Positions 2,940-7,329 of a stretch of DNA of 15,328 bases are shown in pieces. Within the stretch, counting starts at the first letter, position 1, and each line of letters begins with the position of its first letter. Under the pieces are notes generated by a model, which worked only from the letters and a program-made list of their open reading frames with translations, did no database searches and had not been told where the DNA came from. The stretch lies in contig JAAAIG010000893.1 in NCBI GenBank assembly GCA_015852425.1, positions 1-15,328 of the forward strand, read 5' to 3'. This DNA is from Gryganskiella cystojenkinii. Lineage: Eukaryota; Mortierellomycota; Mortierellomycetes; Mortierellales; Mortierellaceae. The translations under genes were made by a program, and so were the position numbers.

Positions 2940-3341
2940 ATGTCCCCAACTGGTATCCCCCAAACCGCGGTCCGTATCAAGAACGTCCAAACCGGCCGTT
3001 GCTTGTACGATAACGCCAACAAAGGCTTGATCTCTTGGCAAGATTCGACCAACGATGATGGTTATTGGTACATCACGCCTATCGCCGACAACGAGTACAA
3101 GATCAAGAACCGTCTTACCGGCAATTGCATTTATTACAACGTCGGTCACAAGAAGCCCATTTCCTGGGAGGATTCGGCTAACGCAGATGGAAAATGGGAA
3201 CTGCAGCGGCTGCATGATGGCAACTTCAAGATTCGAAACCTTCTCACGTCCAATATGTGGTTGTTCGACAACCAAGAGAAGGGCCTCATCGGTTACCCAG
3301 ACAACAACAACACAGATGGCATGTGGACCATTTTGGCCTAG
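2940..3341 (+). CDS. Three-repeat beta-trefoil (ricin-B/fascin-like fold) protein
   Basis: The 133-residue protein is built from three homologous units at about residues 11-48, 53-90 and 96-131. Each starts with an (R/K)IKN or KIRN strand, has an xTG/xTS turn, and ends with a DGxW motif (DGYW, DGKW, DGMW). Three such units of about 40 residues each are the signature of a beta-trefoil; DGxW sits where the QxW motif lies in ricin-B lectins. No signal peptide or membrane segment is visible, so a cytosolic or unconventionally released protein is likely. Ligand binding, perhaps carbohydrate, is inferred from the fold and not shown by specific residues. The ATG at 2940 is chosen because upstream in-frame codons include only a non-ATG start and read through the leader. 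The gene is intronless, with a TATA-like box and C/T-rich leader, and stands isolated between repeat-rich spacers, which suggests strong independent expression. Confidence 0.85.
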   Translation: MSPTGIPQTAVRIKNVQTGRCLYDNANKGLISWQDSTNDDGYWYITPIADNEYKIKNRLTGNCIYYNVGHKKPISWEDSANADGKWELQRLHDGNFKIRNLLTSNMWLFDNQEKGLIGYPDNNNTDGMWTILA

Positions 3342-3987
3342 ATCGATTGACCGATCAGAACAAGGAGTGTTCCTGAGCTCTCTTTTTTTTTTTTTTTTTG
3401 CGCATGGCATTCTTGGTCTTCAACGATATCCATAGTTTCCTTTAAAACACTTGCGTCTTTGAAAATATAAACGTCCCCTAGTTTTTTTTTTTTTTTTGTA
3501 AATTTTCGCTGGCAATTGGCGGGCATTGTGCTCTGTTTGAAAACTTTCGATGTTGGTGAGCACAAAGAGTAAGATGGCTATCGATGGTTTTTAGCGCTGC
3601 AACAAAAATCTTGCGATGACATTTGACAGATGAGATGTACTGTATACCACACTTCCCGAACCCTCTTTATTTGAACATCGTTTGTTGCGTCCCACTTAAA
3701 AGGACGCAGGAATGATGGTTTTCCAAAAGGGAAAATTGAGTAACGAGAAAAAGAGTTGTTTTATATCCGTGCTTGTGAGGTGCGACACTTGGCAAGGAGA
3801 AAACTCTTAATGAATAAGAGAATGGAATCTTTTCGTTCAAAAGCATCGCCGGGTACTTGTCAAATTTCATCCCAAAATGGCCTGTGATTTACACGGTGTG
3901 GATCTTGGTTGCAGTATTCGTGCGCTCACTACTTTTTAATCTGCATTCATCAAGTGACCCCAGTGGAAACGCAAAGGATAACTAACT
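3342..3987. other. Intergenic spacer with two long poly-T tracts
   Basis: This stretch holds the 3' region of the trefoil gene, a 17-base T run at 3383-3399 and a 16-base T run at 3482-3497. The frames that cross it are low-complexity or lack domain features. I see no RNA gene or convincing reading frame here before the SINE-like element. Confidence 0.4.
3978..3987. repeat. Left target-site duplication of the SINE-like element
   Basis: The 10-mer ATAACTAACT is repeated exactly at 4131-4140, directly flanking the tRNA-derived element on both sides. Confidence 0.65.
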
Positions 3988-4130
3988 ATTACGGGAGCCA
4001 GGCCCGATGGCTCACTTAGCACAGTGATTAGGCTCCCCGCTTTGAAAGTAAAGCGGCCGGGTTCGAGTCCCGGTTAAGGCACAGCTTAAAACGGCTATAT
4101 AGGTCCGCTAGAAGAAAGCGGCAAAAAATC
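3988..4130 (+). mobile_element. tRNA-derived SINE-like retroelement, 143 bp
   Basis: The element carries a Pol III A-box-like sequence TGGCTCACTTAG at 4008-4019 and a perfect B box GGTTCGAGTCC at 4060-4070, spaced about 40 bases apart as in tRNA genes. The T arm is canonical: stem CCGGG/CCCGG (4057-4061/4069-4073) with a 7-base loop. The anticodon region is a 7-bp hairpin (4037-4043/4050-4056) with a non-standard 6-base loop, and the would-be acceptor stem (4002-4008 against 4074-4080) pairs at only four of seven positions. It is therefore tRNA-derived rather than a working tRNA. A tRNA-unrelated tail follows (4081-4121) with a small hairpin CCGCT/AGCGG and a short A6 run at 4123-4128. There is no internal TTTT, so Pol III could transcribe the whole unit; TTTT occurs just past it at 4140-4143. 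Exact 10-bp direct repeats flank it, the mark of retroposition by LINE machinery. Known family: none recognised. Confidence 0.65.
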
Positions 4131-4140
4131 ATAACTAACT
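4131..4140. repeat. Right target-site duplication of the SINE-like element
   Basis: Exact copy of the ATAACTAACT at 3978-3987, immediately after the A-rich end of the element. Confidence 0.65.
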
Positions 4141-4632
4141 TTTAGTACGCCAACAAGAAGCCATACCAGGGCAAGCTCCAAAGTTGAAGTCCGACGGTTT
4201 CAAGCATACCAATAACCCAAAGTAGACAAATATACAGGTGGTGGAGAAAAAGTACATCCACGGGGGGTGTGGCGTGTGTTGCCACGGGGGGGGGGGGGTG
4301 ATTGTTCCTTTTTCCCTTAAAAAAACTCTGTTATGGAGCATAGCCCACATGCGGCGTGCGCAAAATTATCTCCCATAGACAAAATGACAAATCGAAAACA
4401 GGCAGATGATCACCCCGTTGAGGGTTTCATTTAATGACAGAGGCAGACATCGCCAGTTGATGCTCACCTACAAGCGAGAGGACGTAACATTATAAAACTG
4501 CAGAGGCACATAAAAACGAGGTCATCTCTTTTTCTTTCTGAAAAGGTCTCAAGTTTTTTCTCTCTGCATTGCCCCTCGCATTCTAACCCCAATTACACAG
4601 CTCATTTTCATTACCACCTACAGAAAAAAAAA
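4141..4632. other. Intergenic spacer with G13 tract and promoter of the small secreted gene
   Basis: It contains a duplicated CCACGGGGGG motif (about 4258-4266 and 4282-4298), the second grown to a run of 13 G at 4286-4298. It ends in a pyrimidine-rich leader upstream of the ATG at 4633. The minus-strand frame at 4135-4350 is crossed by the G tract (a Pro run) and has no recognisable domain. Confidence 0.4.
4491..4497 (+). promoter_or_regulatory. TATA box of the small secreted protein gene
   Basis: A consensus TATAAAA lies 136 bases upstream of the ATG at 4633. It is followed by a T/C-rich stretch (about 4526-4565), where transcription start and leader are expected. Confidence 0.5.
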
Positions 4633-6823: not shown

Positions 6824-6890
6824 TATATTTAACGGGCATATGGTTTTTACTGGCAATCTGTTTACTGGCAGTGCTCGAATAATTTATTCT
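6824..6890 (+). repeat. Left arm of a long inverted repeat
   Basis: This 67-base arm is the reverse complement of 7261-7329 with two substitutions and a 2-base indel. A 46-base core (6834-6879) is identical. The arm itself contains TTTACTGGCA twice (about 6846 and 6862). Confidence 0.85.
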
Positions 6891-7260
6891 TTGAGTATTT
6901 CCCTTGAATAGTTCAACTATCCGGGCGCTTCCCCAACATTTTCTCGATGCCCCGCTGCTGCCCTCGCTCTCTTTGATGACCACCTCACAAAATTCAACGT
7001 ATGAATGACACCATATATGATATAAAACCACTGCCGTTACCATGGGCTCTGGAGTGACCAAACAATGTACAACCTCCTTAGCAGTGAAATTGAGTTTACC
7101 ATTCAAAGAGAAACCAACAAATCTGAATGCAAATACGGGTGAGTTGGATTGTAGAAAGATTAACTGTAGGTACAGTGCATGAAGTGGAGGAGTACTGAGG
7201 GTATGGCCGAAAATATGATACGCAATTCAATTCTCAAAACTATTCAATGAAAAAGAACTA
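6891..7260. other. Interior of the inverted-repeat structure
   Basis: A 370-base interior lies between the arms. On the minus strand it has an open frame (7106 down to 6786, ending inside and past the left arm) preceded by a good intron-end motif (pyrimidine-rich, then TTTGCATTCAG at about 7126-7136). It may hold a last exon of the decayed minus-strand gene to its right. No transposase or other domain is recognisable. Confidence 0.35.
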
Positions 7261-7329
7261 AGAATAAAAATTGTTCGAGCACTGCCAGTAAACAGATTGC
7301 CAGTAAAAACCATATGCCCATTAAATATA
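7261..7329 (-). repeat. Right arm of a long inverted repeat
   Basis: Partner of 6824-6890. The distance between the outer ends is 506 bases. The outer ends share TATATTTAA, so an AT-rich or TA target is possible but not clear. Confidence 0.85.

Follow-up and report, generated by a model that had tools for sequence, protein, structure and literature searches.

The 15,328-nt stretch of Gryganskiella cystojenkinii DNA analyzed here (hereafter the window, which is contig C955 of the 35.0-Mb, 1050-contig assembly that we searched) contains a 143-bp insert bounded by exact direct repeats, and it raises the question of whether this insert belongs to a tRNA-derived SINE family or entered the genome in some other way. 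It occupies an intergenic position, with a lectin gene on one side (2940-3338; seven relatives listed from Linnemannia, Modicella, Mortierella and Podila, best identity 65%) and a small reading frame, judged by eye to begin at about 4634, on the other. Elsewhere in the window, open reading frames gave matches to an RNA cap guanine-N2 methyltransferase, an F-box protein, a WD40 protein and ribosomal L5. The insert and its borders are composed of the following features:

3978..3987, plus strand: 5′ copy of the direct repeat, ATAACTAACT, 10 bp, a putative target-site duplication (TSD)
3988..4130, plus strand: the insert, 143 bp, single copy in the 35.0-Mb assembly
3993..4037, plus strand: predicted closed domain with a perfect 7-bp outer stem (GGGAGCC/GGCTCCC) and two small hairpins inside
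4016..4073, plus strand: tRNA-Asp-like region, from alignment compared with shuffles
4017..4032, plus strand: A-box-like motif TAGCACAGTGATTAGG, with the B box starting 43 nt later
4037..4056, plus strand: hairpin CCGCTTT/AAAGCGG where the anticodon arm is expected, with predicted pairing of 4038-4044 with 4049-4055
4057..4073, plus strand: complete 5-bp T arm containing a perfect B box, GGTTCGAGTCC, at 4060-4070
4082..4122, plus strand: tail unrelated to tRNA, single copy, with a hairpin CCGCT/AGCGG (4105-4109/4117-4121)
4123..4128, plus strand: A6 run, separated from the 3′ repeat by TC
4131..4140, plus strand: 3′ copy of the direct repeat, ATAACTAACT, 10 bp
4140..4143, plus strand: TTTT in flanking DNA, a possible Pol III terminator

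The anatomy on which the original prediction of a retroposed SINE was based stood up in every detail. The A-box-like motif and the perfect B box start at 4017 and 4060, and the 43 nt between these starts correspond to tRNA spacing; the canonical T arm is present as a full 5-bp arm at 4057-4073; and the acceptor stem is indeed degenerate, with GCCCGAT (4002-4008) and TTAAGGC (4074-4080) pairing at 4 of 7 positions. The tRNA-unrelated tail (4082-4122) is followed by the short A run (4123-4128), no TTTT is found internally (the first one past 3990 is at 4140-4143), and the exact 10-bp repeat ATAACTAACT occurs in the window at 3978-3987 and 4131-4140 only. The GGTTCGAGTCC at 4060-4070 is the sole GGTTCGANTCC in the window, where 0.04 would be expected on average and where 7 of 200 shuffles contain one. 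The A-box-like TAGCACAGTGATTAGG shows a single departure, G19 to A, from what we take to be the consensus; judged against that consensus, both Pol III boxes are present in a tRNA-related head.

Comparison with tRNAs agrees with the proposed tRNA-derived character. Among 42 distinct ARAGORN-called tRNA sequences, a sample of the genome drawn from the best 63 of 1042 RF00005 candidates scored, tRNA-Asp aligned best to the element (three of the 63 places lay outside this comparison, and one of them, C1030, was obtained later with a tRNA-Asp-like pattern search). The score of 4016-4073 was reached by none of 2000 dinucleotide shuffles, and by 2 of 2000 when the T arm was left out; with 42 tRNAs compared, the latter result makes the T arm the strongest part of the likeness, and the putative similarity outside it is only suggestive. 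ARAGORN (default, bacterial, standard code) found no tRNA in the element, RF00005 was absent from its Rfam matches even at E≤10, and no cloverleaf of the kind expected from a functional tRNA gene was recognized by tRNA models. An intron-containing tRNA gene was discarded, as relaxed or intron settings of ARAGORN yielded implausible calls only, and so was a known RNA family, as both Rfam matches obtained were at chance level.

The family claim, on the other hand, fails in the 35.0-Mb assembly. A whole-element search returned one match, the element itself; each of four patterns from the element (lengths 27, 26, 25 and 23 nt; 3 mismatches allowed) matched one place in the genome, as did the exact A-to-B-box pattern, while a tRNA-Asp-like pattern found seven places, namely six tRNA-Asp sequences and the element. 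The same tools recovered other repeats: a tRNA-Lys control pattern yielded seven places, three of them with 1-3 mismatches, and dispersed repeats were retrieved from the same assembly at 75-84% identity with a query from the flank and at 74-90% with a query from locus L022. These copy counts depend on the 1050-contig assembly and on genome searches that score the best candidates. A sequence-only model (R1), run over the window and 30 tRNA loci, matched the element alone, and one 24-base exact pattern for each of the bacterial/archaeal and viral collections gave no match, as expected for a fungal sequence. Instead of the many copies at about 75-95% identity that had been anticipated we thus found a single-copy locus, the outcome named beforehand as refuting, and no dispersed multicopy family. 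Of the retroposed SINE that had been proposed, the SINE-like anatomy stands, retroposition is supported and the family is not borne out in this assembly, and the element is best read as a one-off SINE-like retroposition, not classifiable as a SINE family.

We also searched the assembly for an empty paralogous site with positions 3450-4620 as a query, and found no second copy of the locus; all ten additional matches were to the dispersed repeats at 3682-3787 or 4223-4314. The former is a partial copy of a repeat found at 75-84% identity on seven other contigs in matches of up to 106 bp. By eye, its fuller copies span about 230 bp, and the one at L087, starting with TGTTG and ending with CAACA, resembles a solo LTR or a MITE. 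The latter consists of two short overlapping stretches rich in G runs, with 88% matches in C297 and C329. Elsewhere in the window, 6824-6896 and 7257-7329 form an inverted repeat (73 nt, 90% complementary, 360-nt spacing), a possible fold-back element.

How telling, then, are the flanking repeats and the A run? A direct repeat by itself is weak evidence for insertion: exact matches of at least 10 occurred in 28 of 4000 random 40x40 windows from this window and in 83 of 20000 random 30x30 windows from other loci, and non-simple direct-repeat pairs of at least 10 bp, 100-350 bp apart, enclose 6.5% of sampled positions. When an A6 within 10 nt before the 3′ copy is required as well, this proportion drops to 0.14%, genuine insertions included (379,538 strand-bases, 58 sources), so that the combination seen here, exact 10-bp copies with A6, is rare by chance. 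A scan of the 58 sources for this combination (repeats of at least 10 bp at a distance of 100-350 bp, the 3′ copy preceded by A6) produced 12 rows that reduce to four events: the window, one at L015 and two in L022. The L015 event is AT-rich, on a contig presumed mitochondrial (C269 is so presumed from its many tRNAs), leaving the two L022 inserts as the only nuclear pairs besides that of the window.

These two inserts flank a tRNA-Ile gene, the locus having been sampled because it bears a tRNA. One, at L022:1682-1820 on the plus strand, is bounded by exact repeats of 14 bp (1682 and 1807), and the other, at L022:1096-1220, by exact repeats of 13 bp (1854 and 1966 in reverse-strand numbering); each has an A run. 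A genome search showed both to be members of dispersed families with A-rich 3′ ends (families a and b), indicating that the scan captures genuine retroposed inserts, and the 143-bp element is captured by it too. Pairwise matches between copies extend over varying distances upstream of the 3′ end, roughly 100-640 nt in family a and 70-680 nt in family b, with contig ends shortening some of these extents; such variable reach matches what is expected of 5′-truncated LINE-like elements, which both families probably are. Widening the scan to repeats 60-800 bp apart (87 sources, 522,306 strand-bases) brought in two more cases of doubtful nature, at L026 and L046, and here the pair in the window was alone in enclosing a B box. 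Two family-b copies, L100 and L101 (C146:30124-30228 and 28666-28770), lie about 1.4 kb apart in opposite orientation, with equal score and printed sequence. Reverse-transcriptase (RVT_1) matches in the genome number 11 over the Pfam cut-off, with stops inside 5 of them, and by eye comprise LTR-type as well as LINE-type elements; Pfam and protein searches linked none to family b.

A LINE sharing the 3′ tail had been predicted as the partner, and no such LINE was found. Patterns from the tail were unique to the element in the assembly; against 14 loci from the 11 reverse-transcriptase places the best tail score, 36.0, was exceeded by 8 of 20 shuffled tails; and when hand-made tail strings of the two A-tailed families were the target, 1521 (family a) and 3806 (family b) of 5000 shuffles did as well as the tail. 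When the whole element was compared with 19 copies of the two families, 17 fell below the best of 20 shuffles, and the remaining two (L101 and L108) exceeded it by one point, which we take as chance. A common 3′ tail is therefore not seen, and a partner recognizable by it is rejected. Poly(A)-type LINEs do not require a shared tail.

With a probability of roughly 0.55, we regard the element as a tRNA-like Pol III sequence retroposed on one occasion, either solitary or the last recognizable copy of an otherwise lost family. Its source would have been a tRNA-like Pol III transcript, nearest to tRNA-Asp, with an added domain at its 5′ end and a tail at its 3′ end, and now lost or absent from the genome. 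This transcript may have been reverse-transcribed once into the intergenic site by target-primed machinery of the poly(A) type, presumably of the kind that made the A-tailed inserts elsewhere in the genome, and the A6 run and the 10-bp TSD would be the traces of insertion. The exact repeats with A6, an arrangement shared among the sampled nuclear pairs with the A-tailed L022 inserts only, the B box between these repeats, the tRNA-Asp likeness, the single copy and the presence of reverse-transcriptase matches in the genome argue for such an event. Against it are the fairly common occurrence of lone direct repeats by chance, the TC intervening between the A run and the repeat, the lack of resemblance between the tail and any LINE-like 3′ end, a tRNA-Asp likeness that is suggestive once the T arm is removed, and the lack of a source copy in the assembly. 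The last point creates a conflict, since the intact repeat suggests youth, while the lack of any relative at up to 3 mismatches suggests age; under a simple neutral model, the probability of an intact 10-bp pair combined with failure of all four patterns to hit the source was highest, at 0.4%, for a divergence d of 0.2 (of the values tried). It is because of this conflict that we hold one-off retroposition at only 0.55; the conflict would disappear if the source were lost or unassembled, or if the repeats were due to chance.

In the latter case, the element could be a resident gene for a non-coding RNA, present once and transcribed by Pol III from an internal promoter of the tRNA type, which we consider unlikely. 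Its single copy in the assembly and the perfection of its stems and T arm are in line with such a gene, as is the TTTT immediately downstream, at 4140, a terminator of the type seen at tRNA genes of this genome, 46 of 54 of which in our sample (presumed mitochondrial loci excluded) have TTTT no more than 10 nt past their end. However, 1673 of 5000 random points have a TTTT no more than 66 nt away, which makes one commonplace, and the 10-nt bin directly upstream of the tRNA-like part has an A+T content of 0.2 or 0.3, depending on which of two possible starts is chosen, versus a mean of 0.66 at the 54 tRNA genes. Moreover, no Rfam family is matched beyond chance, the repeat and A-run arrangement is rarely produced by chance, and the plus strand of the insert has only a modest folding advantage over its shuffles (z −1.92, equalled by 4 of 200), ranking 30 (z −2.18) in a fold scan of 762 windows with strands pooled. 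In the same scan, the minus strand of 3988-4130 ranks 4 of 762 (z −3.61), thus comparing better with its shuffles than does the tRNA-like strand.

It is quite improbable that the element belongs to a true SINE family, the remaining copies of which reside in related strains or species or have diverged past detection: the hallmarks that a single SINE can display are there, in a genome bearing traces of retroposition, but no second copy was detected with the whole element or with the four 23-27-nt patterns at up to 3 mismatches, while repeats at 74-90% were found elsewhere. Equally doubtful is a functional single-copy Pol III RNA of Mortierellaceae, in which a tRNA-Asp-like promoter and T arm would be joined to new hairpin domains, perhaps recruited after one retroposition. 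Finally, in-place decay of a tRNA-Asp duplicate made at the DNA level, between repeats due to chance, is very improbable, even though tRNA-Asp tops the 42 tRNA sequences compared, as a perfect 7-bp stem in place of the anticodon arm, next to an intact T arm, is not what random decay should leave, and the 5′ and 3′ extensions, found nowhere else in the assembly at up to 3 mismatches, are not duplicated tRNA flank.

Classical tRNA-derived SINE families have a tRNA-like head, Pol III boxes, a tail and flanking repeats. The element shares all of these, but such families are multicopy and it is single in the 35.0-Mb assembly. In tRNA retropseudogenes, a tRNA-related RNA is inserted as a one-off; the element differs from them in its additional 5′ domain and tail of about 50 nt, and is too unlike tRNA-Asp to have been copied from it directly and recently. 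It resembles families a and b (the L022 inserts and their relatives) in its A-rich 3′ end and exact flanking repeats, the latter being 13-14 bp in L022, whereas these families are dispersed and multicopy, and their likeness to its tail is at shuffle level. Strictly defined, a SINE family requires more than one copy. Of the classical families, Mg-SINE of Magnaporthe has about 100 copies, as quoted in a section of PMC5063351. The closest precedent appears to be AfuSINE2 of Aspergillus fumigatus, described in parts of the same article as low-copy tRNA-related elements of 140-493 bp with 4-14-bp TSDs, a tRNA-unrelated region and no cloverleaf; AfuSINE2-3a, -4a and -5d are reported there as single copies by Southern blot, with Table 1 listing 2 for -5d (PMC5063351). 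As far as those parts describe them, these elements have in common with ours the tRNA relationship, TSDs, tRNA-unrelated region, single copies and lack of a cloverleaf, but belong to a different fungus, have degenerate A and B boxes as opposed to the perfect B box seen here, and were named SINEs although single copies (PMC5063351); the likeness is one of description. As to the initial remark that SINEs are poorly described in early-diverging fungi, literature searches returned no paper on tRNA-derived SINEs in Mortierella, on SINEs among transposable elements of Mucoromycota or on SINEs and tRNA in early-diverging fungi, but a passage of PMC6123716 reports SINEs to be abundant in fungi closely related to Rhizophagus.

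If the one-off retroposition is true, it shows that copy number should be tested before a SINE-looking single element in a fungus is called a SINE. The A-tailed inserts in L022, for their part, indicate poly(A)-type retroposition in this genome recent enough for the flanking repeats to be still intact, and offer a starting place in the search for real SINEs.
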